A DNA stretch of 37,582 bases, taken from positions 1-37,582 of IMG/VR virus record IMGVR_UViG_3300042881_001919. The stretch is one strand, 5' to 3'. This stretch comes from a virus. Within the stretch, counting starts at the first letter, position 1. Every line of letters begins with the position of its first letter. Made by a program: the position numbers and the translations under genes. A model generated the notes under the pieces. The model saw nothing but the letters and a program-made list of their open reading frames with translations. It ran no database searches and was not told the origin of the DNA. Shown piece after piece: positions 3,504-35,838 of this stretch.

Positions 3504-4748
3504 ATGAAAATATTTGTACAGATAGCATCGTATCGCGACCCACAACTTATTCCAACAATTAAATCAATGTTGGAAAATGCGAAAAAACCAAAAAATCTTA
3601 GAATTGGTATTGCAAGACAATTTCATCCTGAGGATGGCTTTGATGATTTAACCGAGTATGAAAAGGACGATCGTTTTCGTATTTTAAATATTGATTACAC
3701 AGAGTCAAAAGGAGTTTGTTGGGCAAGACACCAAGTACAACAATTATATAAAGGTGAGGAGTATACCCTTCAGATTGATTCTCATATGAGATTTGAGAAG
3801 GATTGGGACGACACGCTTATCAAGATGATTAAACAACTCCAAAAGAAAGGACATAAAAAACCATTGTTAACAGGTTATGTTTCATCTTTTAATCCTGAGA
3901 ATGATCCTGAAGGTAGAACACAAGAACCCTGGAGAATGGCTTTTGATAGATTTACACCCGAAGGTGTTGTATTCTTTTTACCTGAAACAATACCAGGATG
4001 GAAGGAACTTAAAGAACCTGTTACAGCTAGATTTTATTCAGCTCACTTCTGCTTTACGTTAGGTCAATTCTCAACAGAGGTCCAACACGACCCTGAGTTT
4101 TATTTTCACGGAGAAGAAATCTCAATCACCGTAAGGGCTTACACTCACGGATATGATTTATTCCACCCACATAAAACCGTTATTTGGCATGAATACACTC
4201 GTAAAGGTAGAACAAAACAATGGGATGATGATAAAGATTGGTATAAAAGAAATACCGCTTGTCACATTAAAAATAGACAACTTTTAGGTATTGATGGTGA
4301 AAACTATTCTGGTAACACATCAGAATGGTTTGGTACCGAAAGAACAATCCAAGACTATGAAAAATATGCAGGTCTTTTATTCGAAACAAGAGGAGTACAG
4401 CAAGAAACAATTGACAAGACATACCCACCAAACACGTATGATTATAAAAATATTAAGGAATGGAAAAAATCTTTCTCTAGCATTTTTAAACATTGTATTG
4501 ATTTAAGTTTAAGTCAAGTACCTGAAACTGATTATGATTTTTGGGTGGTTGCATTCCACGATAAAGATCACAACACATTGTTTAGGCAAGACGCTGACGC
4601 TAACGAAATAGTTAGAATAAAATCAGATCCTGACGGATATGGGAAGGTATGGAGAGAATTCCACACAACTCAACGTCCGGCTTATTGGGTAGTTTGGCCT
4701 CACTCATTATCTAAAGATTGGTGTGAAAGAATTGTGGGTAATTTATGA
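3504..4748 (+). CDS. GlcNAc-transferase-type glycosyltransferase (PF11397-like)
   Basis: A 414-aa protein resembling the 'Glycosyltransferase (GlcNAc)' family, whose founding member glycosylates hydroxyproline of Dictyostelium Skp1. The GT-A domain begins at residue 1 with IFVQIASYRDPQL, continues with SKGVCWARHQVQQLY and the DxD-equivalent TLQIDSHMRFEKDWDD (about residues 91-106), and ends with FYFHGEEISITVRAYTHGYD and IWHEYTRKGR (about 200-240). The rest, about 250-414, is an extension of unknown role. It begins the packed part of the glycan cluster; the next gene starts 40 nt downstream. The acceptor is unknown. A protein acceptor is worth considering given the nearby Pro/Thr-rich virion proteins. 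Confidence 0.8.
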   Translation: MKIFVQIASYRDPQLIPTIKSMLENAKKPKNLRIGIARQFHPEDGFDDLTEYEKDDRFRILNIDYTESKGVCWARHQVQQLYKGEEYTLQIDSHMRFEKDWDDTLIKMIKQLQKKGHKKPLLTGYVSSFNPENDPEGRTQEPWRMAFDRFTPEGVVFFLPETIPGWKELKEPVTARFYSAHFCFTLGQFSTEVQHDPEFYFHGEEISITVRAYTHGYDLFHPHKTVIWHEYTRKGRTKQWDDDKDWYKRNTACHIKNRQLLGIDGENYSGNTSEWFGTERTIQDYEKYAGLLFETRGVQQETIDKTYPPNTYDYKNIKEWKKSFSSIFKHCIDLSLSQVPETDYDFWVVAFHDKDHNTLFRQDADANEIVRIKSDPDGYGKVWREFHTTQRPAYWVVWPHSLSKDWCERIVGNL

Positions 4749-8202: not shown

Positions 8203-9882
8203 ATGAGTGATCATAAAATTACATTAGTCACCGGTTTATGGGACATAGGTAGAGGAGACCTTACTGAGGGTTGGTCTAGATCATTCGATCATTATTTAAA
8301 TAAATTTAGTCAACTTCTTGAGGTTGATTGTAATATGATAATATTTGGTGATCGTGAACTAGAGTTATTTGTAAAAGAAAGAAGGAGTAATGATAAAACT
8401 CAATTTATTTTAAGAGATTTAGAATGGTTTAAAAGTAATGAGTTTTACGGTCAGATACAACAAATAAGAAATAACCCAAAATGGTTTAATCTTGCTGGTT
8501 GGTTAAAGGACTCCACTCAAGCAAGGTTAGAGATGTATAACCCATTAGTTATGTCAAAAATGTATTTGTTACACGACGCATTACTTATGGATAAATTTGA
8601 TTCTGATAAATTATATTGGATTGACGCTGGATTATCAAATACGGTAAATATGGGTTACTTCACTCACGATAATGTTCTTGATAAGATAGACAAGTTGTTT
8701 GATAATTTCACATTTGTTTGTTTTCCATACCATGCCGATCGAGAAATACACGGGTTTGATATTGATAAGATGACTCAAATAACAAATGTTAGGGTAGATA
8801 AAGTTGCTCGTGGAGGTTTTTTTGGTGGAACAAAAGAATCTATTAGACAAATTAACACATTGTACTACGACTTAATGAAAACAACATTAAGTAAGGGTTT
8901 AATGGGAACAGAAGAAAGTTTATTTTCAATATTACTATATAATAATCCAACCTTAACTGAGTATGTTGAGATTAATCAAGATGGGTTAATGTATAGGTTT
9001 TTTGAGGATGTTAAGAACGACTCCGCCCAAGTTAAAACAATGTCTAACGGTAAAAAAGTTGAGGTTAAAACAAATGGTGAGGTTGGTCTATACGTTATTA
9101 CATACAATAGTCCAAAACAATTTGAGACATTAATTAATTCTATGATGGATTATGATATGGATTTTATTGTTAAAACAAAAAAGTTTTTACTAAATAACTC
9201 AACGGACTTATCCACAACACCGGAATACGAAAGATTATGTAACCAATATGGTTTTGAGCACATCAAAAAAGATAATATTGGTATCACAGGTGGTAGAGTT
9301 TTTATTGCGGAACACTTTGATAAAACGGAAATGGATTATTACATATTTTTTGAGGATGATATGTTTTTCTATAATGGTGTGGATCAAACTTGTAAAAATG
9401 GATTTAACCGAAATACAAAAAAATTATTTAAGAAAGTCCTACAAATTATAAGAAAAGAACAATTTGATTATCTTAAATTAAATTTTACAGAATTTTATGG
9501 TAGTCACGAAAAACAATGGTCTTGGTATAATGTTGACCAAGAGTTTAGGAAGAATCACTGGCCGTTTAATCAAAATTTAGCCCATCACGGGGAAAGCCCA
9601 AATGTCCCAAATTTAGAATTTAAACATATAAAATCACACGAAGGTGTTCCATACGCAACGGGTGAGGTATATTTATCTAATTGGCCAATCATTTTGTCTC
9701 GTGAAGGTAATTATAAATGTTATATCGAAACTAAATTTGATTATCCTTATGAGCAAACATTGATGTCTCATTGTTATAAACAAATGGTTAATGGTAGGGT
9801 TAGTGCTGGTGTTTTATTGATGACACCGACGGAACATAATAGATTTGATTTCTATGAGGGAAGTTCAAGAAAAGAATTCTAA
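8203..9882 (+). CDS. HtrL/YibB-like + GT-A fusion protein
   Basis: A 559-aa two-domain protein. Residues 1 to about 270 resemble the HtrL/YibB (WlaTC) family: ITLVTGLWDIGRGDLTEGW opens it, then CNMIIFGDRELELFV, PLVMSKMYLLHDAL and KLYWIDAGLSNTV, whose Asp resembles the nucleotide-sugar-binding acidic motif. Residues about 290-559 form a second, GT-A-like unit: VGLYVITYNSPKQFETLINS, DYYIFFEDDMFFYNG (EDD acidic motif) and a late YATGEVYLSNWPIILSREGN. Fusion of two glycosyltransferase-type units suggests two sequential transfers. It ends the glycan cluster; a new promoter-like element follows. Confidence 0.75.
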   Translation: MSDHKITLVTGLWDIGRGDLTEGWSRSFDHYLNKFSQLLEVDCNMIIFGDRELELFVKERRSNDKTQFILRDLEWFKSNEFYGQIQQIRNNPKWFNLAGWLKDSTQARLEMYNPLVMSKMYLLHDALLMDKFDSDKLYWIDAGLSNTVNMGYFTHDNVLDKIDKLFDNFTFVCFPYHADREIHGFDIDKMTQITNVRVDKVARGGFFGGTKESIRQINTLYYDLMKTTLSKGLMGTEESLFSILLYNNPTLTEYVEINQDGLMYRFFEDVKNDSAQVKTMSNGKKVEVKTNGEVGLYVITYNSPKQFETLINSMMDYDMDFIVKTKKFLLNNSTDLSTTPEYERLCNQYGFEHIKKDNIGITGGRVFIAEHFDKTEMDYYIFFEDDMFFYNGVDQTCKNGFNRNTKKLFKKVLQIIRKEQFDYLKLNFTEFYGSHEKQWSWYNVDQEFRKNHWPFNQNLAHHGESPNVPNLEFKHIKSHEGVPYATGEVYLSNWPIILSREGNYKCYIETKFDYPYEQTLMSHCYKQMVNGRVSAGVLLMTPTEHNRFDFYEGSSRKEF

Positions 9883-16198: not shown

Positions 16199-18403
16199 TT
16201 ATTCATTTGTAGGACAAACGATCTTTTCTCTTTGGGTTGTTTTAACCGGTAATTCTTTTGTTACAAGAGTATCTTTATCCTTAAAGATATATCCTTTAAT
16301 GGAGCTATATTCAGGTTTTATTCTAAAACGAATTGATAGCCTTTTTTCGTCACAACCTCTTTGACCTTTATTGGACCAATACAAATCAATATATTCTATA
16401 GGGATAATAAAATCTCCCTCATAAATAATACCTGACATCTTTTGTTTTACTTTTTCTAAATACTCATCGGCACCTGAATTGTTAAGCAACCAAACATATA
16501 GTTTATCAATTAATTGATTATATGGGTCGATATAAATTTGTTTTTCGGGAGCTAGTGAACTCTGTTTAAATATTGAGAAAAATTCAGATAAGTAACTATC
16601 GATGAATGGATCCATCTTCTTAACTTCAAAATATGAGTTTGATGGGAATATTACTTTACCATCTTCGTCTTTAAGATCTTGTTTTGAAATTAAGTCCGCC
16701 TTAACGTAATATGTTCCACTTTTAAACGATTTTGTTAAACACGATATTATTTTATCCGCTTGAATGTCTATCGCTTCTTCTCCTGAATGAACTTTTTTAA
16801 TTACATCGATTAATTTTTCTTTTGCGTTGTCAGAACATTTATAATCCAATTGTAGTTTAGTTTGTTTTTTCTTGAAGAACTTTCCGGTAAATTTTTCTTC
16901 ATACTTACTATGTTCTTTTTGCCTTGCGTATGCTAATAAACCCTCTAAGTTATCCGGAACCGTACTTGAATATCTTTGTCTGTTTAGGATTTTTTTAACT
17001 TCATTATCTTCATAATTTTTATCAACAATAAAGTCAGAAATTAATTCTAAAAAGTTTACGGTTCTTTCTTGGTTCTGTAACGCCAATTTTATAATGACAG
17101 GAAATGTACCAACGTTCTTCTTAGCAAAAAACCCATCTAAAATAAAGATTGAATGTTCAAGTTCTCGTTTAAGGTAATCATCATTTAAATTATCTCTAAA
17201 TTTTTTTAACTGACAATATTGAGATTCTTCCGTTTTAGATTGTTTACATAAGTAATCTATTTTTGAGTGTCTTCTTGGTGCAATCTCATTAATTAATGTT
17301 GATTCATTTAATTTTTTCTTAGAAGTTCTTTTAATAAAAAGGTCATTAACAAATTCCCAATTTACAACGTCCCAAAACTTTTTAATATATTCGTCTCTTT
17401 TGTTTTGGTATTTTAGATAATAAGCGTGTTCCCAAACATCAAGACCAAGAAGTGGATAACCACCACCTTTAACGATACCCATTAAAGGATTATCTTGATT
17501 TGGTGTGGACATAATTTTTAACTTACCATCCTTTGCAAGATATAACCAAGCCCAACCAGATCCAAAACGATCTTTAGCCGCTTCGTTAAATTCATCCTTC
17601 ATCTTTTTTATGTTTCCAAAATCAGATGTTATCTTTTTTAATATTTCACCTTTCGGTAATTGTTTCTTCGGGGATAGCATTTTCCAAAACAAAGCGTGGT
17701 TAAAAGATCCGCCCGCATTATTCCTAACCTTATCGTCAAATTTACCAATGGATTTAATAATCTCCTCAAGATCCATATCACCTTCTTTGTCTTTAAGTGA
17801 TTTGTTTAATTTATCCACATAACCTTTGTAATGTTTGTTGTAGTGGATATCCATAGTTTTTGAATCAATGAATCTCTTAAGTGATGAGTACGAGTAAGGT
17901 AATTTCTCAATCCCGATTTTTTTCATTTCAACTATTAAGTTTTCCTTAATTGTTTGTTTCTCGGTTATTAAAAGTTGTTCGTTAATAATCATCAACCTTT
18001 TTTCAATACCTCTACTCTCAAACATTAACTCTTGTATCTCGGGGTGTTTTTTCTCAAACATTTTAATTAATTGACCAGCAAACGCATTTGCTTCGTCTTC
18101 ATTCTTCCCTCCAATATCAGGACCAACTTGTCTTTTAAGAATTTTCATTTGGTGTTCGTGTACCCACTCGTGAGCCAAAGTTCTCAATACATCCCTATTA
18201 AGTCTCCCTTTAGATAAGATTTTTAATTCGGAATCCATTGTTCTACTACCTGTGGACATTTCACCTTTTCTATCGCTTAAAAAAGTAACTTTTAAATCAT
18301 TCTTTAAAGGGTATTTGGTTTGTAAAAAAGCAATAAATTTTTTAGCAAGATCTTTATCTTCCTTAGACATATCGCAATTTACGTGTTTGATTGAAACTCT
18401 CAT
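16199..18403 (-). CDS. Zincin-like / Mn-superoxide dismutase / unknown multidomain protein
   Basis: A 734-aa protein with at least three parts. Residues 1-125 are a zincin-like domain with HEWVH (H78, E79, H82) and a downstream NEDEANAFAGQL whose E104 could be the third ligand. Residues about 166-358 are a complete Fe/Mn superoxide dismutase: ligands H187 (MDIHYNKHYKGYV), H236 (NHALFWKML), D322 and H326 (LDVWEHAYYLKYQNKR), gate residues H191 and Y195, and GSGWAWL. GG at 231-232 and Q303 (PNQDNPLMG) favour the Mn type. Residues about 375-734 are unrecognised. Clusters of (I/L)xE motifs flank the SOD domain. SOD converts superoxide to peroxide and oxygen. The start ATG 18403 is only 4 nt from the TATTTATT element; Met12 is an alternative start. 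Confidence 0.9.
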   Translation of the reverse strand: MRVSIKHVNCDMSKEDKDLAKKFIAFLQTKYPLKNDLKVTFLSDRKGEMSTGSRTMDSELKILSKGRLNRDVLRTLAHEWVHEHQMKILKRQVGPDIGGKNEDEANAFAGQLIKMFEKKHPEIQELMFESRGIEKRLMIINEQLLITEKQTIKENLIVEMKKIGIEKLPYSYSSLKRFIDSKTMDIHYNKHYKGYVDKLNKSLKDKEGDMDLEEIIKSIGKFDDKVRNNAGGSFNHALFWKMLSPKKQLPKGEILKKITSDFGNIKKMKDEFNEAAKDRFGSGWAWLYLAKDGKLKIMSTPNQDNPLMGIVKGGGYPLLGLDVWEHAYYLKYQNKRDEYIKKFWDVVNWEFVNDLFIKRTSKKKLNESTLINEIAPRRHSKIDYLCKQSKTEESQYCQLKKFRDNLNDDYLKRELEHSIFILDGFFAKKNVGTFPVIIKLALQNQERTVNFLELISDFIVDKNYEDNEVKKILNRQRYSSTVPDNLEGLLAYARQKEHSKYEEKFTGKFFKKKQTKLQLDYKCSDNAKEKLIDVIKKVHSGEEAIDIQADKIISCLTKSFKSGTYYVKADLISKQDLKDEDGKVIFPSNSYFEVKKMDPFIDSYLSEFFSIFKQSSLAPEKQIYIDPYNQLIDKLYVWLLNNSGADEYLEKVKQKMSGIIYEGDFIIPIEYIDLYWSNKGQRGCDEKRLSIRFRIKPEYSSIKGYIFKDKDTLVTKELPVKTTQREKIVCPTNE

Positions 18404-22092: not shown

Positions 22093-25000
22093 ATGGCAAC
22101 AAACAGTAAGGTTTTTGTTTCTCCTGGTGTATATACTTCTGAAGTTGACTTAAGTTTTGTAGCACAAAGCGTTGGGGTAACTACATTAGGTATTGCAGGT
22201 GAGACTTTAATAGGTCCTGCTTTCGAACCGATCTTTATTACAAGTTTCGATGAATTCCAAACCGTATTTGGTGGGACTTCACCTGAAAAATTTGTTAATA
22301 CTCAGATCCCTAAATACGAAGCGGCCTACATCGCAAAAGCATATTTACAACAATCTAACCAATTGTTTGTAACTAGAATATTAGGTTTATCTGGTTATGA
22401 TGCGGGACCATCTTGGTCAATAACAACGGTTGCAAACGTTAATCCTGCAACAATCAATCAATGGTGTTTAAGTTCTGTAACTGATTTTGATACTTGTGTT
22501 ACAACTTGTGTGACACCTAAAGTATTATCATTCTCAGTACCATTTACGGCTTGTACTAATGGAGAACAAACGATCGGATATAACGGATCATTCCCTTCAA
22601 TTATAGAGGATATTCTTGCACAACAATATGAAGAATTTAATGGGGACACATCAACATTAGAAGCTCAAATTAATAGTTTGATATTTGGTGTAATTACAAG
22701 TGATAATCCGTACACCGCTGAAGACGAACAAATCGCATATTTTGGTTCTATCGATACAGATGACTACAACACATTAAATGGTGCTGGTTGGACGGCAGAA
22801 ACAAACGTATTCGAAGTCCCTTCAGTTTCGTTGGATGCAACTGATCTTATGTCATCATTAAATGACTCTTGGTACTACGCATTATTTGCTAACACTGGTA
22901 ATACAAATTATTCAGGTTATTCATTCTTTACATATGTGTCAGGTTTAACGGCTTACTACCCTAACCCAACATCAACTCCTCAAGCGTCGGCAACACCGAC
23001 ACCAACACCATCATTTGTTAACCCTTGTATTACCCCATCACCTTTTACTTCACCAACACCAACACCAACACCGGTTAATATTGATTGTTATTCAGGTACG
23101 GTTGTGGGTAAAATTTATTACTACACGGGGACATCTTATGTTGATTACGATAACGTAGTTGTTGCAACTTTAAGATCAAGAGGTTTATCAACTTATACCA
23201 CAGACACAAACCCAATGTATTCAGTTACGGGTGTAACAGATGTTTCTTTAGATATGACAGGACAATATTCTGGTGTTCTTAAGAACCCTTATTTAACATT
23301 TGCGGTAAATGCAAAAGATAAATTTGGAACAAACTTTACGTTTGAAACATCATTAACACAAAATGATCCTGAGTATATCACAAAAGTGTTTGGAGTTAGT
23401 AACTTCCAAAAACCAAGAATTGAGGTTCCAATATTTGCGGAAGAAGTATTCCAATCATTCTTAAATTATTCTTGGAAAAAAGGATACATTAGAGGATTAA
23501 ACTCTGAGTTTATTGAATTAGATTCTGCTCAAAGCGGTGACCCTAATTCAATTGGGTGGTACTTAGACAGATGGCAAACACCTAACTCACCTTGGGTTGT
23601 ATCTGAATTAAGAGGTAATAAAGTTTATGACTTATTTAGATTCTATACAGTTTCTGATGGTGATGCGGCAAACACATTAGTTAAAATATCGATTATTAAT
23701 CAAACATACAACAACTTAACGTTTGACGTATTAATTCGTGATTATTTTGATACCGATGCAAATCCAGTGGTTATTGAGAAATACACTAATTGTACGATGG
23801 ATCCGGGACAAAATAACTTTATCGGTAATAAAATCGGAACATTAGACGGAGAATACATATTGAATTCTAAATATGTTATGGTTGAAATGAATGAGGACGC
23901 ACCTATCGATTCACTTCCTTGTGGATTTAATGGATTTAATTTTAGAAATTATGCGGGAGCTAACTCACCATTCCCAATCATTAAAGGTAAATACGATTTC
24001 CCTGGTGAAGTTATTTATAACCCACCATTTGGTTTATCAACAGGTAACGATGATGCTTTAATTAGCCCAGGAGACAATGTAAGAAGAACATACTTAGGTA
24101 TATCTAATAGCCTTGGATGGGATCCGGCTTACTTCGAGTATGTTGGTAAGAGAAATCCAAACAACACTTGTGATATAGATGGTTTACCATTTAATTACAG
24201 GTCAGCAGGTTTCCATATGGATGTTAACGCTAGTGGATTAACAATCGGACCTGAGTTCTCAACAAGTGGTCAAACAAGATTTATTTGTGGTAACTCACCG
24301 TTCATTACAGATCCTGAATTACCAACAAATGCTTACTACAGATTATTCGCACGTAAATTTACATTCTTAGTACAAGGTGGATTTGACGGATGGGACATCT
24401 ATAGAGAGTGGAGAACTAACACGGACGAATTCGAAATCGGTAGAAGAGGGTTCTTACGTGGATCTTGTCCATCAACTAGATACCCTAACGCAACAGGATG
24501 GGGAGCATTTAAACAGATTTCTCTTGGTGATGGTACTCAGAATTGGGCGAATTCAGATTATTACGCATACCTATTGGGTCAACAAACATTCGCTAACCCT
24601 GAGGCAACAAACATTAATGTATTCGTTACCCCTGGTATTGATTATGTTAATAATAGTAACTTGGTTGAGTCGGCAATTAATATGATCGAATTCAGTAGAG
24701 CGGATTCACTTTATGTGTGTACAACTCCTGATTATGATTTGTATTTACCAACAACAACAGGTATTGACGGATTTATTTACCCAACAGAAGCGGTTGATAA
24801 TTTAGATAACACAGGTATTGACTCTAACTACACGGCAACTTACTACCCTTGGGTATTAACTCGTGACAGCGTTAACAACACTCAAATCTATATTCCACCA
24901 ACGGCTGAGGTAACAAGAAACTTGGCGTTAACCGATAACATCGCATTCCCTTGGTTCGCGGCGGCAGGTTACACTCGTGGTATTGTTAATTGTGTTAAAG

Positions 25001-25443
25001 CTCGTAAGAAGTTAACTCAAGAAGATAGAGACATTCTATATGTTGGTAGAATTAACCCAATCGCAACCTTCTCTGATGTTGGTACGGTAATTTGGGGTAA
25101 TAAAACTCTTCAAGTTAGAGAATCTGCACTTGATAGAATCAACGTTAGAAGATTGTTATTACAAGCTCGTAAATTAATTTCAGCGGTGTCTGTAAGATTA
25201 TTGTTTGAACAAAACGACGCACAAGTAAGACAGGACTTCTTAAACGCGGTGAATCCAATCTTAGATGCAATCAGAAGAGATAGAGGTCTTTACGACTTTA
25301 GAGTAACGGTTTCTTCAAGTCCTGAGGATATTGATAGAAATCAATTGACAGGTAAGATTTACATCAAACCTACAAGATCTCTTGAGTTCATCGACATCAC
25401 ATTCTACATTACTCCAACAGGAGCATCGTTTGAGAATATATAA
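22093..25443 (+). CDS. Tail sheath protein, T4 gp18-like, with Pro/Thr-rich insert
   Basis: An 1116-aa contractile sheath subunit, much longer than T4 gp18 (659). The N-terminus VFVSPGVYTSEVDLSFVAQ and FEPIFITSFDEFQTVFGG, then AYIAKAYLQQSNQLFVTRIL, are typical sheath motifs. The C-terminal domain from about residue 955 is also typical: PWFAAAGYTRGIV, ILYVGRINPIATF, GNKTLQ, NVRRLLLQARKLI and a closing IDITFYITPTG. The conserved ends polymerise around the tube; the middle carries surface-exposed domains. Residues about 290-328 form a Pro/Thr-rich stretch between domains, followed by a Cys (NIDCYSG). The gene has a strong upstream region and ends just before a good intrinsic terminator, consistent with very high late expression. 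Confidence 0.95.
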   Translation: MATNSKVFVSPGVYTSEVDLSFVAQSVGVTTLGIAGETLIGPAFEPIFITSFDEFQTVFGGTSPEKFVNTQIPKYEAAYIAKAYLQQSNQLFVTRILGLSGYDAGPSWSITTVANVNPATINQWCLSSVTDFDTCVTTCVTPKVLSFSVPFTACTNGEQTIGYNGSFPSIIEDILAQQYEEFNGDTSTLEAQINSLIFGVITSDNPYTAEDEQIAYFGSIDTDDYNTLNGAGWTAETNVFEVPSVSLDATDLMSSLNDSWYYALFANTGNTNYSGYSFFTYVSGLTAYYPNPTSTPQASATPTPTPSFVNPCITPSPFTSPTPTPTPVNIDCYSGTVVGKIYYYTGTSYVDYDNVVVATLRSRGLSTYTTDTNPMYSVTGVTDVSLDMTGQYSGVLKNPYLTFAVNAKDKFGTNFTFETSLTQNDPEYITKVFGVSNFQKPRIEVPIFAEEVFQSFLNYSWKKGYIRGLNSEFIELDSAQSGDPNSIGWYLDRWQTPNSPWVVSELRGNKVYDLFRFYTVSDGDAANTLVKISIINQTYNNLTFDVLIRDYFDTDANPVVIEKYTNCTMDPGQNNFIGNKIGTLDGEYILNSKYVMVEMNEDAPIDSLPCGFNGFNFRNYAGANSPFPIIKGKYDFPGEVIYNPPFGLSTGNDDALISPGDNVRRTYLGISNSLGWDPAYFEYVGKRNPNNTCDIDGLPFNYRSAGFHMDVNASGLTIGPEFSTSGQTRFICGNSPFITDPELPTNAYYRLFARKFTFLVQGGFDGWDIYREWRTNTDEFEIGRRGFLRGSCPSTRYPNATGWGAFKQISLGDGTQNWANSDYYAYLLGQQTFANPEATNINVFVTPGIDYVNNSNLVESAINMIEFSRADSLYVCTTPDYDLYLPTTTGIDGFIYPTEAVDNLDNTGIDSNYTATYYPWVLTRDSVNNTQIYIPPTAEVTRNLALTDNIAFPWFAAAGYTRGIVNCVKARKKLTQEDRDILYVGRINPIATFSDVGTVIWGNKTLQVRESALDRINVRRLLLQARKLISAVSVRLLFEQNDAQVRQDFLNAVNPILDAIRRDRGLYDFRVTVSSSPEDIDRNQLTGKIYIKPTRSLEFIDITFYITPTGASFENI
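22961..23075 (+). repeat. Low-complexity CCA-ACA tract in the sheath gene
   Basis: Repeated ACACCAAC-type units encode TPTPTP and related runs at sheath residues about 290-328. The tract resembles that of adhesin B at 11388-11502. Confidence 0.75.
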
Positions 25444-26455: not shown

Positions 26456-26944
26456 ATGGCTGATTTGTTAATGAAAATGCCGATTCCTTACGAACCGAAA
26501 AGAGAAAACCGATGGATTTTAAGATTTCCATCATCACTTGGTATTAATGAGTGGTATGTTGAATCATTCGCAAGACCTAAGATGACTATCGCATCAAAAG
26601 AGATTGAATTCTTGAATACTTCAACATTTGTTGCGGGTAGATTTAAATGGGAACCACTTACGGTAAAATTCCGTGACCCGATCGGACCTTCAGCTTCACA
26701 AGCGGTTATGGAATGGATTCGTTTATGTGCTGAGTCAGTTACAGGACGTATGGGTTATGCCGCTGGTTACAAGAAAAATGTTGACCTTGAGATGTTAGAC
26801 CCAACAGGAGTTGTTGTTGAGAAATGGATTTTAGAAGGATCTTTCTTAACAGGATACGATGGAGGTTCGTTAGCTTACAATAGTGATAACATTGCAGGAA
26901 TCACTTCTACTATCCAAATGGATAGATGTATCCTTGTGTATTGA
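26456..26944 (+). CDS. Tail tube protein, T4 gp19-like
   Basis: A 162-aa protein, the same length as T4 gp19 (163). It has the gp19 sequence pattern: PYEPKRENRWILRFPSSLGI, WYVESFARPKMT, the strand pair VAGRFKWEPLTVKFRDPIGP, then AVMEWIRLCAE and YKKNVDLEMLDPTGVVVEKWI, which match the 'kW.l.G.f' end of the family. Subunits stack as hexameric rings to make the inner tube that carries DNA, inside the sheath. The gene has its own promoter-like element and A-rich leader and is followed by three inverted repeats, so its mRNA may be produced alone and in high amounts. Confidence 0.92.
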   Translation: MADLLMKMPIPYEPKRENRWILRFPSSLGINEWYVESFARPKMTIASKEIEFLNTSTFVAGRFKWEPLTVKFRDPIGPSASQAVMEWIRLCAESVTGRMGYAAGYKKNVDLEMLDPTGVVVEKWILEGSFLTGYDGGSLAYNSDNIAGITSTIQMDRCILVY

Positions 26945-26950
26945 TTTTTT

Positions 26951-26975
26951 TTAGGTACTACTAAAATATACCTAA
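26951..26975. repeat. Inverted repeat after the tail tube gene
   Basis: TTAGGTA (26951-26957) pairs with TACCTAA (26969-26975) across an 11-nt loop, just after the tube stop. The T tract lies before, not after the stem, so it is at best an atypical terminator or a processing or stability element. Confidence 0.45.
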
Positions 26976-26977
26976 CC

Positions 26978-26995
26978 ATTTACAATATTGTAAAT
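26978..26995. repeat. Perfect 18-bp palindrome upstream of homing endonuclease
   Basis: Bases 26978-26995 read identically on both strands (ATTTACAATATTGTAAAT). It shares its last 4 bases with the next hairpin, so the two cannot fully form together in RNA. Confidence 0.7.
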
Positions 26996-27023
26996 TCCCA
27001 TATATTTATATGTATGGGAATTT
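26992..27023 (+). promoter_or_regulatory. 14-bp hairpin enclosing promoter-like element and start codon
   Basis: Bases 26992-27005 pair with 27010-27023 (13 Watson-Crick pairs and one G-T wobble) around a 4-base loop. The right arm contains the homing endonuclease ATG (27014-27016); TATTTATA (27003-27010) spans the loop. In a transcript read through from upstream, the start codon would be locked in the stem. Confidence 0.7.
27003..27010 (+). promoter_or_regulatory. TATTTATA promoter-like element inside the hairpin
   Basis: TATTTATA ends 3 nt before ATG 27014, within the hairpin described for 26992-27023. Confidence 0.4.
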
Positions 27024-27907
27024 TTATTTGTAAAATATGTCAAAAAGAATGTGGTAACATTAATTCGTTAAGGTCACACTCCATTCAGAAACATAATATT
27101 TCTTCTGAAAAAATTTATCTTAATTACGTTTTAAATGGTGTAAAACCTAAATGTGAGTGTGGTTGTGGTGAAATACCTAGTTTTATATCGGTAGTTAAGG
27201 GGTATTCTAAATTCGTCCAATCACACCATAATAGAGTACCCGGTAAAAATAATTACCACAAAAATCCTGAAACTCATCAAAAGGCAATTAAGACCCAAAA
27301 GAAAAATTGGGAAGAAGGAAAGTATAAAGGTTGGTGGGAAGATAAAACACCGGAGACAATAAAAAAAATTGAGGGTATTAAGGATAAATTGAAAAACAAT
27401 AAAGAAAGAGGTAAAAAAATATCTAAAAAATTAAAAGGAAAACCAAAATCTGAGGAATCTAAACGTAAATTATCAATTACTCAAAAGAAAAGATACGAAG
27501 GTAACCCACAACTTAGAGAAAATTCATCAAATAAAAGAATTATGTGGTTAAAATCAAAACAATCTAATAAAAAAACTAAATTAGAAATTAAGTTTGAAAT
27601 GATGTTAAATTTAATTGGTGTTGAATTTGAGATTCAATTTGAATTTAAAAAAAGATTATTTGATTTTAAAATTAAAAACAAAGACATATTAATAGAAGTT
27701 GATGGAGATTTTTACCACTCCAACCCCAATACAAAACATTCCGAAATGTTATACGAGTCTCAAAAAATGACAAAAAAAAATGATCTATTTAAAGATGAAT
27801 TATGTCAAAATCACGGAATAAAATTACTTAGATATTGGGAAAAAGATATAAATGAAAGACCTGAATGGGTCATATCAGAACTTAAGAAAGAATTATCTTT
27901 ACTATAA
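27014..27907 (+). CDS. Free-standing homing endonuclease (zinc finger, NUMOD3-like, Vsr-like nuclease)
   Basis: A 297-aa protein with three parts. Residues 5-27 are a C2H2 finger (CKICQKEC...HSIQKH), followed by a Cys cluster at about 49-54 (KCECGCG). Residues about 133-160 (KKISKKLKGKPKSEESKRKLS) match NUMOD3, a DNA-binding module typical of homing endonucleases. Residues about 190-285 form a Vsr/DUF559-like nuclease: KLEIKFEMMLNLIGVEFE, then FDFKIKNKDILIEVDGDFYH with acidic catalytic candidates, and HGIKLLRYWEKDI. Such enzymes cut DNA lacking their gene and spread by repair. It is inserted between the tube and chaperone genes, which are otherwise neighbours in tail modules. The very Lys-rich, AT-rich composition differs from the flanking genes and supports transfer. 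Confidence 0.85.
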   Translation: MGIFICKICQKECGNINSLRSHSIQKHNISSEKIYLNYVLNGVKPKCECGCGEIPSFISVVKGYSKFVQSHHNRVPGKNNYHKNPETHQKAIKTQKKNWEEGKYKGWWEDKTPETIKKIEGIKDKLKNNKERGKKISKKLKGKPKSEESKRKLSITQKKRYEGNPQLRENSSNKRIMWLKSKQSNKKTKLEIKFEMMLNLIGVEFEIQFEFKKRLFDFKIKNKDILIEVDGDFYHSNPNTKHSEMLYESQKMTKKNDLFKDELCQNHGIKLLRYWEKDINERPEWVISELKKELSLL

Positions 27908-27941
27908 CTTCGCCACAACTATTATTAAAACAAAAACTATT

Positions 27942-28712
27942 ATGGAGCAAGATATATATGCAGCAGGTCAAGAAGGGTTTAGCCTCCCACACGATGTAAT
28001 ACAATTACCAACGCAAGGGGTGTTCTACAAATCAAAGAAAAAATCAATTAAAGTTGGTTACTTAACTGCGGTGGATGAAAATATCCTTTCAGATTTTGAT
28101 GGTAGAAAAAATATTACCGAATCAATTATCTTACCTTTATTGCGAAACAAACTTTATGAAAAAGATTTAAGACCTGAAGAACTTCTTGATGGAGATGTTG
28201 AGGCTATATTACTTTTCTTAAGAAATACCGCGTTTGGACCTGAGTATAGGTTAACACTTGTTGATCCGAAAACAGAAGAAACTTTTGTTGCGTCAATAAT
28301 GTTAGATGAATTAAATTACAAAAAAACAGAACACCAAGTAGACGAGAATGGATTCTTCAACACTGAATTACCTGTATCAAAAAGAAAAGTAACTTTAAAG
28401 TTATTATCGTTGGCTGATAGAATGGAAATTGAGAGAATCATTAAATCGTATCCCTCTGAAAGAGTTGCTCCGACAATTACCACAAGATTAAACAAACATA
28501 TTGTTAGTATTGACGGTAATGATGATAGAGTTAATATTTCCACATTTGTGGAAAGTATGCCGATTGGGGATTCTAAATTCATTAGAAAATTTGTATTAGA
28601 TAATGAACCAAGATTAGATTTAAAAAAAGAAGTTATCGCCCCGTCAGGAGAAAAAGCAGTAGTCGATGTTGCTTTTGGGGTGGAGTTTTTTCGGCCTTTC
28701 TTCGCAATATAA
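27942..28712 (+). CDS. Tail assembly chaperone-like protein, T4_baseplate (gp26/gp51) family
   Basis: A 256-aa protein beginning at ATG 27942 (MEQDIYAAGQEGF). A longer frame from 27852 would add 30 residues read out of the endonuclease gene and is rejected. VIQLPTQGVFYKSKKKSIKVGYLTAVDENILSD (about residues 17-49 in full) matches the family opening 'LPS.G..Y......v..r.lta.eE'. RPEELLDGDVEAILLFLRNTAFGPEY then matches the 'd..L...D...ll..lR...yG' part. These proteins in T4 relatives work in baseplate hub assembly, and the position just before the tape measure matches the G/GT-type tail chaperones of other phages. The gene's last 47 bases overlap another frame, and a candidate frameshift site lies at 28686-28694. 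Confidence 0.8.
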   Translation: MEQDIYAAGQEGFSLPHDVIQLPTQGVFYKSKKKSIKVGYLTAVDENILSDFDGRKNITESIILPLLRNKLYEKDLRPEELLDGDVEAILLFLRNTAFGPEYRLTLVDPKTEETFVASIMLDELNYKKTEHQVDENGFFNTELPVSKRKVTLKLLSLADRMEIERIIKSYPSERVAPTITTRLNKHIVSIDGNDDRVNISTFVESMPIGDSKFIRKFVLDNEPRLDLKKEVIAPSGEKAVVDVAFGVEFFRPFFAI

Positions 28713-28848
28713 GATAACAATTCTTGATGAATTTTATTATTTCTCTAAAATTTTCAGAACTCAATACTCAGAGTTTATGAGAATACCGACTTATGCTAGA
28801 AAATATTTGATTAATAAGTTTGTTGAGGAAACCCAAAACAAACAATAA
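28666..28848 (+). CDS. Overlapping small frame, probable frameshift extension of the tail chaperone
   Basis: An open frame offset by +1 (or -2) from the chaperone, ending 25 nt before the tape measure start. Its useful part after the overlap (KITILDEFYYFSKIFRTQYSEFMRIPTYARKYLINKFVEE) shows the helical 'Y...M(P/R)..E/AR.(Y/F)(F/L)...(L/F)' pattern of small proteins that follow the chaperone in T4-like phages. It may be made as a fusion of about 301 aa through slippage at TTT TTT CGG (28686-28694), or from its own ATG at 28666. The residues before the slip site would then be non-functional. The frame is real on position and composition; the mode of expression is inferred. Confidence 0.65.
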   Translation: MLLLGWSFFGLSSQYKITILDEFYYFSKIFRTQYSEFMRIPTYARKYLINKFVEETQNKQ

Positions 28849-28850
28849 AA

Positions 28851-28858
28851 TATTTATA
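28851..28858 (+). promoter_or_regulatory. TATTTATA promoter-like element
   Basis: TATTTATA follows the stop of the small frame by 2 nt and ends 15 nt before the tape measure ATG 28874. Confidence 0.5.
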
Positions 28859-28873
28859 AGATAAAGAATTACA

Positions 28874-30703
28874 ATGGGAATTGGTAATAGAATTGGTCGG
28901 AATAAAAAAGAAGTCGATAAAGCCGAATACGATAAATATCAAAAATGGGAAAAGGAACAAAAAAGTTTCCAAGAAAAATCCCTAAAGTCCAATGACGAAT
29001 ACATTAAAAAATATTCCATTGGTATAGATTCATTACCTAATATTTTTGGCAAGTTAGCCAGTGCCGCAAGTTCTTTCCTTAGTGAAGGGGCTTTAGATGG
29101 ATCAATACAATTATTGGAGGGACAAGCTCAGGATGTTGCAAATAGTTTTGGTGTTGCAAGAGGTAGGATTGAAGAATTTAAACAAGTTATTGCCGATGCT
29201 TCACCTGAATTGGTTAAGATGGGTATTGACCAAACTAAGGTTGCTGAAAATTATGGGGCGATCGCCAAAGAAATGGGCGGTGCTGCTAGTTTGGGGACTG
29301 AAGCAATTGTTGAAATGTCCGCAGCGGCAAAAGTGTCAGGTCAAGACGTTGGAAAGTTAGCTCAAGAATTTAGAAATGTTGGTGTCTCAATGTATGATGT
29401 TGGTGACCAAATGAAGGAAGTTGCTAATTACGCTAGAAGTGTTGGTGTTTCGGTAAGTGCGGTTTCTGCGGGAGTTGTTGGGAATTTAGGTAAATTAAAC
29501 ACGTTCAACTTCGACGGAGGTGTTAACGGGCTAGCTAAAATGGCGGCTCAAGCATCTCGATTAGGGATTGATATGGGTAAAGTATTTAAGATTGCGGACG
29601 ATTTGTTCTCACCTGAAAAGGCAATTGATATGTCTGCCGCACTACAAAGATTAGGGGTAACAAGTAGTGGATTACTAGATCCGTTAAGAGCGATGGATAT
29701 GGCTCAAAATGACCCTCAAGCCTTACAAAATGAAATTGTAAACATATCAAAAGAATTTACCAAATTTAATGAGCAGACAGGTAAGTTTGAAATAATGCCA
29801 GGGTCAAAAAGAAGATTAAGGGAAGTCGCTGAGGCTATGGGTATGACCGCCGAAGAATTGGCGGGAATGTCAATTAAGGCTGCCGATTTTGATAAAAAAA
29901 TGTCACAAATTAAAATGCCGAATTTTGCTGAAGGAGATAGTGAAACTAAAGAATTAATTGCGTCAATGGCTCAAATGAAAGGTGGTGTTGCTACGATTAA
30001 CGTTAAAGATGAAAAAACTGGTGAGGTTACCTTAAAACAAGTTGACCAACTAACCCCTGAAGATATTGAAAAATTAAAAAATTCACAAGCGGAACAAGGA
30101 AAATCAATTGAACAACTAGCTGTTGACCAATTAACTCAATTACAACAAATAAACGCTGGAATAAGTGGGGTTGAAACATCATCTAAATTTGGTGTTGCAA
30201 CAAGTGAACCAATTGAAAAATTATACAATGCGTCGATGGAAATGCAAAGAGGTATTGTTAAAACTTATTCAGAAAAAACAGGAACCAAAGATTTTAGAGA
30301 TGTTGGTAATCAAATCACTCAACCTGTAGAGGACTATATATCTGCTAAAATAAAAGGTGATGAGAAGGGAGAATCTGCCGCTATAGATAATTTCCTATCA
30401 ACTATGGTTAAATTTGAGCAGGAACAAAAAGAAAAACAACAAAATTATTTTATGGAAGCGGTAAAAAGTGTTCAAGATAATTTTAAAGCAAGTTATGATA
30501 AGCCAAAAGAAGTTAAAACAACTTCAGATGTTAATATGAATTGGAAAATTGATGTTAGTGGTAATGCCGATGGTAAAACTAGAGAGGAAATATATAGAAC
30601 GTTGGATGAAAGAATGAAAGATCCTTCGTTCCTTGCTGAATTTAAAAAACTATTGGGAGGTGGAACAGCACCAAGTGCAACCACGGGTGGTAAAAATCAA
30701 TGA
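28874..30703 (+). CDS. Tail tape measure protein
   Basis: A 609-aa, largely helical protein, close in length to T4 gp29 (590), which sets tail length. The central part (about residues 55-330) is Ala/Gly-rich and amphipathic (KLASAASSFLSEGAL, IVEMSAAAKVSGQDVGKL, VSVSAVSAGVVGNLGKL, AMDMAQNDPQALQNEI), as in tape measures from large myophages. SGSKRRLREVAEAMGMTAEELAGM-like text near 300-330 is also typical of them. The C-terminal 200 residues are Gln/Lys-rich. At about 0.15 nm per residue it would specify a tail near 90 nm, comparable with T4. The gene lies after the chaperone, its normal position, and before baseplate genes. Confidence 0.85.
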   Translation: MGIGNRIGRNKKEVDKAEYDKYQKWEKEQKSFQEKSLKSNDEYIKKYSIGIDSLPNIFGKLASAASSFLSEGALDGSIQLLEGQAQDVANSFGVARGRIEEFKQVIADASPELVKMGIDQTKVAENYGAIAKEMGGAASLGTEAIVEMSAAAKVSGQDVGKLAQEFRNVGVSMYDVGDQMKEVANYARSVGVSVSAVSAGVVGNLGKLNTFNFDGGVNGLAKMAAQASRLGIDMGKVFKIADDLFSPEKAIDMSAALQRLGVTSSGLLDPLRAMDMAQNDPQALQNEIVNISKEFTKFNEQTGKFEIMPGSKRRLREVAEAMGMTAEELAGMSIKAADFDKKMSQIKMPNFAEGDSETKELIASMAQMKGGVATINVKDEKTGEVTLKQVDQLTPEDIEKLKNSQAEQGKSIEQLAVDQLTQLQQINAGISGVETSSKFGVATSEPIEKLYNASMEMQRGIVKTYSEKTGTKDFRDVGNQITQPVEDYISAKIKGDEKGESAAIDNFLSTMVKFEQEQKEKQQNYFMEAVKSVQDNFKASYDKPKEVKTTSDVNMNWKIDVSGNADGKTREEIYRTLDERMKDPSFLAEFKKLLGGGTAPSATTGGKNQ

Positions 30704-30735
30704 TAATATACTATTCAAAAAAATACCCTATCATC

Positions 30736-30743
30736 TATTTATA
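30736..30743 (+). promoter_or_regulatory. TATTTATA promoter-like element
   Basis: TATTTATA ends 10 nt before ATG 30754. Confidence 0.5.
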
Positions 30744-30753
30744 AAATAAAAGT

Positions 30754-33700
30754 ATGGCTGAAAGTTTTTTATCGTTTGATAATTCAGAATCGTTTAGACA
30801 AAAATTGTTAGTTAGGAATCTAACACCATACAACGTGCCAGGAACCTACACTTCACCGGGTAATCCAATTAATTATGAAACCAACCTTACGGTAAGTAAT
30901 GTTATTGATTCACCTAATAATTTAGTATCTACTAATATATTTGCAACTGACCTATATCCATTGAATGAATATGGACCTGAAGGTGGTTTTGGAGATCCTA
31001 TTGGTGTTAATAGTGTTGCGTCAACTAATAATCCCGAAGGTACTAATCAAGGTCCATACCAACCGATCGATACGGCTTTAGATGTGATTAACGAATTCTT
31101 TATTGAATCTGCTTATGTTACAAATAAATGGGGACCTGAAGGTGGATACAAAGATTTAATTATTATAACAGACATCCAAAATGGTGGTAACATTTATCAA
31201 CCATATTGGGATCCAGGGTATTTCAACTACTCGTCTTACCCAACATTTAACATAGTATTCCAAGATGATCCTATTGGGTCTAACGGACCTTTGTCGTCCG
31301 ATAGTTTTTTAGCTAAAATCGGAGCGTCTCAATTAAAATTTGCGTTTAACGAAAGAGTTTCTCAAGAAATACAACAAGCGACAATAGGTGCGATTAATCT
31401 TGATACGATTAGTGATCCCTTTTCTGCGAGTTTATTAGCGACAGGACAACAACCTTTCTTTATTAGAAATTGGAAAATTACGGTTCCTGAGAATCCGGTA
31501 CTTGCTGCGGTATCATTAGCAAATAGATTAACGGGAACATATTTCCCCGTTTCTTTTATTCCTGGTGATTATTTTGATGACGACAACCCAGTTAATAAAC
31601 CACAAACCGAAGCGGCTCTTGGGGTTGCAAATAATTTAACGGGTGGGTTATTAGCCCCTATAATGAATAGGTACCGTAACCCTTCTGAAGTTTTTGTTGC
31701 AAATACAGGGAACGGACAAAGATCTGCTTTATTCTCGGCACTTGATTATAACCTTTATAGACCGGCATACAATCGTGGGATTATTGGTGGTCTTATTGCT
31801 GGTGCTTCAGCCGCGGTTAATAGATTATTTAACCAAGATAAGGCACAATCTTCAGGATATTACGTAGGTAGTGAAAATGCTGAACCATCTCAAATAGATA
31901 GTCCACCAAATCAAGTACCTGTAAATCAGTTCGGAGTCCAACAACAAACAATTGTTTATGGACCACAAGAATTGGCGATACTATATGAAGGTAATGAAAG
32001 CTCAATTAATTTTGGTTTAAAAGGTAGATCATATACTGACGGAGGTGGAACCTCAGGTCAAATGGTTTGGACTTCACCAAAATATAAAGGTAATGCAGGA
32101 TTTAGAGCAACTCAAGGTGGTGGTGCTGGTAGTTTAGATGACGATTTTAATCAGATATCTGCCGACTACTTAAGATACCAATCTACTGACGTTCCGTTCA
32201 GACCGGGATCTATTCTATATGAAACTCAAAGATTAGTTGATTCTGCGGACCAAGTTCAGGGACAGGCGAGATTAAAACACGTAGGGACGGCAATTAACCA
32301 AGTGTCTAAGGTGTTTAACGACGGATATAAGGAACTAACTAAAGGTTCTCAGGTATTATCGTATGTAAATCAAGCCGATGGAACACAAGCTGGTTTAGAG
32401 TATTGTAGAGTGTTCCAAAAAGATACACCATATTATACTTACGCTGATTTACAAAAATCAGATGGTATTACAACTTCTGGTAGAAGATTTGATTATTCAG
32501 TATTGGATAACACTTACAACTTAAACATTGCGCCATTAAGAAACCCGGGGTCAACAAACATTGTTGATGGTAAGGTTAAGAAATATATGTTCTCAATTGA
32601 GAACTTGGCTTGGAGAACTTCAGATAGACCTGGATTCACTTATGATGATTTACCTGTTTGTGAGAAAGGACCGAATGGGGGTAGAGTTATGTGGTTTCCA
32701 CCGTACAACTTAAAATTTAGTGACGACTCAAAACCCGACTTTAATGCGACTAACTTTATTGGTCGACCTGAACCAATTTACACTTATAAAAACACAAGTA
32801 GATCTGGTCAGTTAAGTTGGACAATTATTGTTGATAACCCATCTATGTTGAATACGATCATTGAAAAACAAATGAAAGGTATTAACAAAGACAGAGTACA
32901 AAGTGTTGTTGATTCATTCTTTGCTGGTTGTATGAAATATGACCTATATGAATTAGGGATTAAATTTAACACAATACCATCTAAGGATTTATTTACGTAT
33001 CAACAAATATTAAATAACCCTAGATTAACCACAGAAGAACAAGTGCAAGTATTGCAAAGTATTCCAGTGAATGAGGAAACTACAAACGATGGTAAGTCTG
33101 AAGGTGCCGATGGGACTCCAAATACTACCGCAGTTGGGACACAAACCGCACAAAATGTTGAGTATGTTGAAACTGATTTAAGTGGATATGTTGGGTATGG
33201 TTTTTATTTTGAAAATGATATACCAAAAGGAAACCCTTCTTCTGTTGCGGCATCACCATTTAACGTATATTACAATAGTTACATTGGTTTAAAAAACACA
33301 ACATATGCGGGGTCTAAACCACCTGCCGAAGTTAAATCAGGCTCTGACACATTTACTAAAGGGGGTATACCAAATTTCTTTGATTCTGTAATTACAGGAA
33401 ACTTTAACTTAATTGAATCCGAATTGATAAAACAAAAGATAGATGAGGTATTAGTTAAAAAAGGTGGTAAAATAGAAATTGAACTAGTTGGTTCCGCATC
33501 GGCACCTCAAACGGTTTCATATAACCAAAAGTTATCTGAAAGAAGAAATGATTCTGTTAAAAAATGGTTCTTAAGTCAAAAATTATCTGATGGTAAAACT
33601 ATAGAACAATACCAAACTATGGGTAGTTTTAAAATTATCTTTAATGCGAATGGTGAACAATTAGTAATACCAAAAACTAAAGAACTTGCTTCCGCAACAA

Positions 33701-35838
33701 CTGAGACTAATGATATTAGTGTTACTAACGCTCAAGGGGGTAATGTTTTAAGTGCAAGTATAAATTGTAGTCAAGATATTGTTGCAATAAATTCTCAAGG
33801 TCAACCTATACCTGATCAAAATTCACCTAATGAAGCGCAATGGTATAGTATACCGGCGATGGCTTGTAGGAGAGTTGCAATTCAAAGAATAAAGGCTGAA
33901 ATACCTAAAGAACAAACAACCACAACAACTACAACTCAAGTACAAAAACCTAAGGTGGATAACGTCGCAAACGTGTTAACACAACAAACCCAAAGTATTA
34001 AACCTGAAGCTAAAATAACGATACAACAAAAAATTAAAGAGGGGATATCTAAACAGATATTAAGAAACCTATTTACTGAATGTGACTATTTCCAAGTGAT
34101 AAAGGAAACGGATCCTATGGTGTATGAAACTATAAAGGATAAAATTAAATTCTTTAGTCCTGCGTTTCACTCTATGACACCTGAAGGTTTGAATGCTAGA
34201 TTAACATTCTTACAACAATGTACTAGACCTGGTCAGACCATTCCTATTATAGGACCTGATGGTAGGCCAAAATATAATGACGCGTTAAATACGTCATTTG
34301 GAGCACCACCGATATTGGTGTTAAGAATTGGTGACTTCTATAATACTAAAATAGTACCAACTAGTTTAGCAATTAGTTATGACCCACTTACTTTAGATTT
34401 AAACCCTGAGGGGATCGGAGTCCAACCGATGATGGCAAACATAAGTATGTCATTCAATATAATTGGAGGTATGGGGTTGAAAGAACCCGTACAAGAATTA
34501 CAAAATGCCCTATCATTCAACTATTACGCCAATACAGAAATATACGATGAGAGAGCAACTGCAACGGAGGATACTAGTAAAATGGACCAATATGTTGTTG
34601 AAAAAATAACAAGTGCTTTACCAACATTAAGTTCGGAAAAGGCGGATCAAGTAAATAACATACAACCTAAAAAAGGTGGTAGTACAATTGGTGTTATTGC
34701 TAGTAATACCGATATGGATTACACAACGGTACTTGGATCCCTACAAGAAGGGATGCAAGGATACTTTAAATCTTATTATGACGCGATTAATAAAATTAAC
34801 ACTGACTATAATTTTGGTGTTTTACAAATTGCGTTAAAAAATAGAAATTACACTAATGGTGTATTGTCTGAGTATACCGCAGATAAGGTTGAAATTAATC
34901 TTTATGGTAAAACAAACTCATATCAAGAATATGTTGAGAATTTAATTAAAGACGTTAAGAAGGATATTGAAGGTAATAAAGACCCAATACTTAATGGTTT
35001 AACCAATATGACTAATAAACAAAAACGAGAATTGGAAGATAAGTTACAAAATTACGCAACTCAAAGACAAACACCGATTTTAGATGTCATATTAAATAAT
35101 ACCGCAAATATTACAAAGGTTGAAACGGAATTAAATTTTGTGTTTAGACAATTAGATGTGGTTGCATCAAAATTAGATGGTGAATTAGGTTCTAACAACG
35201 AACCTGTTACTTATGATTTAAGTGGTGACACGTTCTTTGGGTCATCAACAACCGATGGATCTTTATTGAAACTTTATACTAAAGATGTTCCCGACGCAAT
35301 TAAAGTGTTTGAAGATTTATTATTAAAAAATCAAGTAACATCCAAAGACGGATTTTTTCAAACTAAAAGCTCAACCATTGAAAACGGAACAGGGTGTAAG
35401 TATGTGATTAATGGTGTTGATTTCTTTGGTACTGGTAATGGTAATTGTCCGTATAATAGATTTTATATTGCAATGTCGCCTTTATTTACAAAATCCGACT
35501 CACTAACACAATTAAAAAATGATTTAACAAGCGGTGAAGAAGTTAAAAAATCACCTAATTTGGTTGAACAAATAAATAAAGCTTGCGATAATTGGGCGGG
35601 TGAATGTAATAAATTCCAAAAAGTATGGACAGACATTTTTGATGTTATTGCAAAATCACCTGAGTACGATACGGTATCTAAATTTAAATTACCTGACAAC
35701 CAAATAAAAATCTGTCAATACGTTAAACCCGCAACAAACGATTTAAATACCAAGAATAAAAGGATTAAAGATCTGTATTCAAACGCAAATTTAAATAACG
35801 ATAAAAAAACCTTTAATGGTAAAGTAACTTTTAATTAA
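30754..35838 (+). CDS. Giant baseplate/tube-initiator-like protein with internal OmpA-like domain
   Basis: A 1694-aa protein. Two segments resemble the halves of tail-tube initiator or cap proteins (gp48/gp54-like): FIGRPEPIYTYKNTSRSGQL to SFFAGCMKYDLYELGIKF (about residues 670-735), and VLRIGDFYNTKIVPTSLAISYDPL to ANISMSFNIIGG (about 1188-1237). Between them, about residues 880-985, is an OmpA-C-like domain: a helix (SELIKQKIDEVLVKKGG), then IEIELVGSASAP and YNQKLSERRNDSVKKWF, matching the 'v.G(h/y)aD....n..LS.rRa..V' pattern that binds peptidoglycan. A Thr/Gln-rich linker follows. The N-terminal 600 and C-terminal 400 residues are unrecognised. It is followed after 2 nt by the gp53-like gene. 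Baseplate location is inferred from order and these likenesses. Confidence 0.75.
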   Translation: MAESFLSFDNSESFRQKLLVRNLTPYNVPGTYTSPGNPINYETNLTVSNVIDSPNNLVSTNIFATDLYPLNEYGPEGGFGDPIGVNSVASTNNPEGTNQGPYQPIDTALDVINEFFIESAYVTNKWGPEGGYKDLIIITDIQNGGNIYQPYWDPGYFNYSSYPTFNIVFQDDPIGSNGPLSSDSFLAKIGASQLKFAFNERVSQEIQQATIGAINLDTISDPFSASLLATGQQPFFIRNWKITVPENPVLAAVSLANRLTGTYFPVSFIPGDYFDDDNPVNKPQTEAALGVANNLTGGLLAPIMNRYRNPSEVFVANTGNGQRSALFSALDYNLYRPAYNRGIIGGLIAGASAAVNRLFNQDKAQSSGYYVGSENAEPSQIDSPPNQVPVNQFGVQQQTIVYGPQELAILYEGNESSINFGLKGRSYTDGGGTSGQMVWTSPKYKGNAGFRATQGGGAGSLDDDFNQISADYLRYQSTDVPFRPGSILYETQRLVDSADQVQGQARLKHVGTAINQVSKVFNDGYKELTKGSQVLSYVNQADGTQAGLEYCRVFQKDTPYYTYADLQKSDGITTSGRRFDYSVLDNTYNLNIAPLRNPGSTNIVDGKVKKYMFSIENLAWRTSDRPGFTYDDLPVCEKGPNGGRVMWFPPYNLKFSDDSKPDFNATNFIGRPEPIYTYKNTSRSGQLSWTIIVDNPSMLNTIIEKQMKGINKDRVQSVVDSFFAGCMKYDLYELGIKFNTIPSKDLFTYQQILNNPRLTTEEQVQVLQSIPVNEETTNDGKSEGADGTPNTTAVGTQTAQNVEYVETDLSGYVGYGFYFENDIPKGNPSSVAASPFNVYYNSYIGLKNTTYAGSKPPAEVKSGSDTFTKGGIPNFFDSVITGNFNLIESELIKQKIDEVLVKKGGKIEIELVGSASAPQTVSYNQKLSERRNDSVKKWFLSQKLSDGKTIEQYQTMGSFKIIFNANGEQLVIPKTKELASATTETNDISVTNAQGGNVLSASINCSQDIVAINSQGQPIPDQNSPNEAQWYSIPAMACRRVAIQRIKAEIPKEQTTTTTTTQVQKPKVDNVANVLTQQTQSIKPEAKITIQQKIKEGISKQILRNLFTECDYFQVIKETDPMVYETIKDKIKFFSPAFHSMTPEGLNARLTFLQQCTRPGQTIPIIGPDGRPKYNDALNTSFGAPPILVLRIGDFYNTKIVPTSLAISYDPLTLDLNPEGIGVQPMMANISMSFNIIGGMGLKEPVQELQNALSFNYYANTEIYDERATATEDTSKMDQYVVEKITSALPTLSSEKADQVNNIQPKKGGSTIGVIASNTDMDYTTVLGSLQEGMQGYFKSYYDAINKINTDYNFGVLQIALKNRNYTNGVLSEYTADKVEINLYGKTNSYQEYVENLIKDVKKDIEGNKDPILNGLTNMTNKQKRELEDKLQNYATQRQTPILDVILNNTANITKVETELNFVFRQLDVVASKLDGELGSNNEPVTYDLSGDTFFGSSTTDGSLLKLYTKDVPDAIKVFEDLLLKNQVTSKDGFFQTKSSTIENGTGCKYVINGVDFFGTGNGNCPYNRFYIAMSPLFTKSDSLTQLKNDLTSGEEVKKSPNLVEQINKACDNWAGECNKFQKVWTDIFDVIAKSPEYDTVSKFKLPDNQIKICQYVKPATNDLNTKNKRIKDLYSNANLNNDKKTFNGKVTFN

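Follow-up and report, generated by a model that had tools for sequence, protein, structure and literature searches.

An OmpA-like domain predicted inside the putative tail-tube initiator of a family of aquatic tailed phages

Does a phage baseplate protein carry an OmpA-like, peptidoglycan-binding-type domain, and, if it does, does that domain hold the cell wall? The question is raised by the 37.6-kb IMG/VR virus record IMGVR_UViG_3300042881_001919, analysed here as one stretch of 37,582 nucleotides (the window), the right part of which is a contractile-tail gene cluster. The protein concerned, ORF1694, is encoded in the following setting:

22093-25443: tail sheath, 1116 aa
26456-26944: tube
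27014-27907: homing-endonuclease-like ORF
27852-28712: T4-type hub protein
28874-30703: tape-measure-like protein (TMP)
30754..35838, plus strand: ORF1694, tube-initiator protein with an insert, 1694 aa
35841..36164, plus strand: LysM-like small baseplate protein (gp53 / A-1(L) gp16 type), 107 aa
after the 107-aa gene: open ORF running to the end of the window

The order sheath, tube, hub, TMP, ORF1694 and LysM-like gene is that of the tail genes of the phages immuto and Mel-JY01. The sheath domains are confined to the last ~280 residues of the sheath protein, which thus has a very long N-terminal extension, and the homing-endonuclease-like ORF, located between the tube and hub genes, overlaps the start of the next ORF. 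Elsewhere in the window, residues 166-356 of a 734-aa protein (16199-18403, minus strand) form a complete Fe/Mn superoxide dismutase domain (E 1.7e-61); the protein also has long extra regions and is unusual among phages. Glycosyltransferases are encoded at 3504-4748 and 8203-9882; one resembles beta-glucosyl-HMC-alpha-glucosyltransferase, and DNA modification is possible. ORF1694 itself has an N-terminal region (residues 1 to ~600) and a helical C-terminal region (~1280-1694), with the following features between them (all on the plus strand):

32566..32883, plus strand: first half of the tube-initiator domain, residues ~605-710, from a discontinuous structural alignment and a profile match
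32884..34314, plus strand: whole insert, residues ~711-1187, with conserved helical segments either side of the OmpA-like domain
33160..33906, plus strand: OmpA-like domain, residues ~803-1051, from Pfam, PDB profiles and the AlphaFold model
33499..33501, plus strand: Ser916, in place of the diaminopimelate-binding Asp, with Ser in 142 of 142 sequences
33523..33546, plus strand: Asn924, Leu927 and Arg931, equivalents of TagL Asn494, Leu497 and Arg501
34315..34470, plus strand: second half of the tube-initiator domain, residues ~1188-1239, from structure only

The OmpA C-terminal motif SASAP...YNQKLSERRNDSVKKWF, on which a preliminary description of this DNA had based an OmpA-like domain at residues 880-985, is present in ORF1694; it starts in frame at 33391, position 33390 being out of frame. 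The domain stands, but its span is wider, since the first strand (GFYFEND, 816-822) and the last (CRRVAIQRI, 1038-1046) extend it to residues ~803-1051. Pfam OmpA (PF00691) matches the whole of ORF1694 at E=2e-4 and the module alone at E=1.7e-5 (25.5 bits, below the gathering score of 27.2). The same family matches 33 of 36 relatives at E<=0.01 (best 3.3e-6), as well as the ORF1694 counterpart in all 17 large relative contigs, two of them above the gathering score. These E-values and the repeated matches among relatives indicate that the match is not due to chance. When the PDB was searched with a profile of the module, OmpA, Pal, PorE, OprF and YfiB structures headed the list (best E 9e-4), and a more diverse profile gave a best OmpA-type E of 2.9e-5. 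An NCBIfam search pointed to the same type of domain. A second OmpA-like ORF, of 286 aa, was seen in a 272-kb relative contig (228950-229249, minus strand); it, too, has Ser (GSSS) near the position of the Asp.

Two AlphaFold models were built from family alignments, one of residues 500-1694 and one of residues 590-1280. The flanks of the first are poor (pLDDT ~30-50) and improved in the tighter crop, for which 101 sequences were used; the OmpA part was predicted with confidence both times (pLDDT ~80-97 in its core), except for a long loop near residues 980-1000. The best structural matches of the second model are tail-tube-fold proteins and OmpA-like domains, and nothing else; the first had these two kinds of match as well, with lower Z. 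With VIA-align, OmpA-like chains align solely to the insert of the second model. The closest is A. baumannii OmpA 3td3 (Z 9.2, rmsd 3.0, 120 of 120 residues aligned), followed by 3td5, with a bound peptidoglycan peptide (Z 9.1), 3td4, with diaminopimelate (Z 9.0), PorE (Z 8.8) and TagL (Z 8.5); Pal was overlaid as well. Foldseek searches of the PDB with both models returned no match at E below 0.001, so that the claims about fold rest on VIA-align and the sequence profiles. The structure prediction for which the preliminary description had called thus gave an OmpA-like fold (Z up to 9.2), and, as modelled, the ORF1694 insert includes a real OmpA-like domain.

The flanks of the insert align with tube initiators on both sides of the interruption. 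The best match, aligned across the insert, is Pvc7 (Z 10.7, 143 residues, rmsd 3.7), and Afp7 (Z 10.6), diffocin (10.6), phiCD508 (10.3), Mu gp43 (9.2), P1 (9.2), T4 (8.9) and pyocin R2 (8.7) follow; these chain names (Pvc7, Afp7 and the like) were assigned by us from entry titles and chain sizes. The tube strands in the second model have a pLDDT of just ~60-84. In the model the flanks form one tube-initiator domain with the OmpA-like domain inserted between its two halves, as had been suspected from the sequence. A profile comparison of residues 600-770 with uninterrupted relatives gave a probability of 90.9 (E 1.4e-7), and the Mel-JY01 homologue shares the first tube half by BLASTP (E 2e-5); for the second half, profile comparison with insert-free relatives found no sequence-level match. 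The suggested comparison with relatives lacking the insert was also made. In the Mel-JY01 and immuto homologues the tube-initiator domain is uninterrupted: the segment read as the second half directly follows the first, and there is no OmpA-like segment. The insert is therefore most simply an addition in the clade of the window. The Mel-JY01 homologue (positions 26577-33344 of that phage) is 2255 aa long and has many 'LYDTKY..ESSIFDWDGK' repeats before its tube-initiator domain.

Each of the 142 distinct sequences in the alignment has the insert, even where overall identity falls to 46%; as the ranking was by similarity to the query, more distant insert-free members may exist. Its length over the counted span is 217-278 residues. 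No IMG/VR family member among the 142 is without it, and insert-free homologues were met solely in more distant phages. The family is a large one, of aquatic tailed phages, and is common in IMG/VR, with at least 600 pattern matches and contigs of up to 322 kb. In an annotated phage collection, tblastn gave no match to the whole protein at E 1e-5 and none to the module even at E 10, and a bacterial genome collection (host genomes, prophages) contained no match to the family. The UniProt entry A0A6J5L6C4, from an uncultured phage, is a relative of ORF1694 and is uncharacterised. The module is far more variable (mean entropy 1.97 bits, mean column identity 51%) than its flanks (0.73 and 0.61 bits). 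Cysteines 551, 636, 726, 1005, 1038, 1110 and 1156 are invariant in 142 of 142 sequences; two of the seven lie within the OmpA-like domain, and disulfides or a metal site are possible.

In TagL, diaminopimelate is contacted by Asp486, Asn494, Leu497 and Arg501 (PMC8253398). The spacing of these residues, 8-3-4, is exactly that of Ser916, Asn924, Leu927 and Arg931 in ORF1694. Asn924 and Arg931 are invariant (142/142) and Leu927 is Leu in 136 sequences and Ile in 6, so that the Asn, Leu and Arg of diaminopimelate-binding OmpA, Pal and TagL domains are found here and their Asp is not. The alteration of the Asp of 'GH(T/A)D' had been noticed beforehand, the Arg then being taken as partly recognisable; the alignment has Ser at the former position in every sequence and keeps the latter fully. 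Judged by its residues, Ser916 is a substitution that has become fixed at a critical position, the rest of the crevice being constant while the module varies; the crevice is conserved, yet is no canonical wall-binding site. From calorimetry with D271A and R286A, A. baumannii OmpA is reported to depend critically on Asp271 and Arg286 in associating with diaminopimelate (PMC6572160). The proposal that the usual diaminopimelate pocket ties the baseplate to the cell wall is accordingly not supported in that form. The crevice may have an altered ligand, wall or protein, because Asn, Leu and Arg, three of the four residues with which TagL contacts diaminopimelate, are kept in exact register. With one key wall-binding residue changed throughout the family, the OmpA fold probably serves a new purpose within the injection apparatus.

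The gene downstream bears on what that use may be. A similar small ORF directly follows the initiator in 120 of 121 loci. The profile of the 107-aa protein matches the LysM of Kbp (1.3e-4) and A-1(L) gp16 (0.08) in the PDB, and it is matched by PHROG 7145 (wedge); its immuto and Mel-JY01 homologues are matched by PHROG 232, also a wedge family. Pfam LysM has no match within ORF1694 and occurs in 1 of 17 large contigs, elsewhere, although baseplate LysMs may escape Pfam. The tube initiators Mu gp43, Milano gp25 and AlgoCIS Alg7 have a LysM module as a structural component, which extends to the wedges in Mu and AlgoCIS; the separate LysM protein gp16 of A-1(L) fills the gap between hub and wedge and connects the two. 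In view of the LysM-like gene directly downstream, the idea that the OmpA-like domain replaces a LysM was dropped; since that protein is encoded next door, the domain is an additional module.

The reading to which we tentatively incline, its chances close to even, is a joint one: ORF1694 initiates the tail tube of a contractile phage, and its OmpA-like domain docks a neighbouring baseplate protein. Judging from the fold, six copies would make up the ring from which the tube is assembled. In the model, the OmpA-like domain, with its helical flanks, comes after the helix of the tube fold and before the last strands, and its place after that helix would make it project outward, towards the wedges and the base of the sheath. 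With a ligand crevice that is conserved but modified (Ser for Asp, Arg and Asn retained), it may hold a neighbouring baseplate protein, in a role comparable to that of LysM in other tube initiators. Docking within the baseplate is tentatively preferred to wall anchoring through the standard diaminopimelate site. Several observations count against docking. The LysM-like adaptor next door argues against a plain substitute for LysM, the variability of the module would be no less expected of an exposed, rapidly changing surface than of an internal contact, and the invariance of Arg931 and Asn924 would fit wall binding as well. The main rival, possible if doubtful, is that after sheath contraction, with the tube tip past the outer membrane, the six OmpA-like domains of the initiator ring hold the wall through the Ser-variant crevice during DNA ejection. 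The TagL-like register of Asn924, Leu927 and Arg931, all (nearly) invariant, the overlay on peptide-bound 3td5 and surface-like variation of the module would agree with this, but Ser replaces an Asp that is critical in A. baumannii OmpA, and LysM, where other tube initiators carry it, is a structural piece. No description of such a wall-anchoring step in contractile phages was found in the literature, and we regard it as unlikely that a tube initiator takes hold of the cell wall, or of a peptide from it, by a Ser-variant OmpA crevice during injection.

It could also be that an OmpA-like fold was gained once and kept for its shape alone, as a spacer or relic with no ligand. Loss of the Asp and the greater overall variability of the module relative to its flanks would be expected of such a fold, but the insert has been lost in none of the 142 sequences, and Ser916, Asn924 and Arg931 are invariant in spite of the low mean column identity, which makes this account improbable. 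Very improbable is a domain that faces outward in the virion and binds a component of the host surface before contraction. Its variability has the pattern of an exposed domain; tube initiators, however, lie at the baseplate centre in solved tails, and an invariant crevice is unlike a host-range determinant.

No published description of an OmpA-like domain in a phage baseplate was found in the literature searched, which was that available without subscription. The domain of ORF1694 has the fold, strand and helix order, motif register and Asn, Leu and Arg of OmpA, Pal and TagL domains (PF00691), but differs in the Ser for Asp throughout, in longer loops between strands, and in lying inside a phage tail protein, whereas those domains belong to envelope proteins. 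TagL of type VI secretion likewise attaches an OmpA-like domain to a contractile injection machine; in contrast to ORF1694, it forms part of the membrane anchor of the producing cell, retains the Asp and lies outside the tail. Mu gp43, Milano gp25 and AlgoCIS Alg7 combine, as ORF1694 does, a tube-initiator domain and a peptidoglycan-binding-type fold in one protein. Theirs is a LysM located after the tube fold, whereas that of ORF1694 is OmpA-like and within it, and the ORF1694 locus, unlike those of LysM-bearing initiators, has a separate LysM-like gene next door. The OmpA-like domain would be the second fold of this type to form part of a tube initiator in a contractile injection machine, LysM being the one previously known, and two independent uses suggest a recurring need at this position of the baseplate. 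The Flavobacterium phage immuto and the Microcystis phage Mel-JY01 share gene order and first-half sequence with ORF1694 and differ from it in having no insert; such natural relatives with and without the insert, together with a defined residue change, make wall binding and structural use directly testable against each other.
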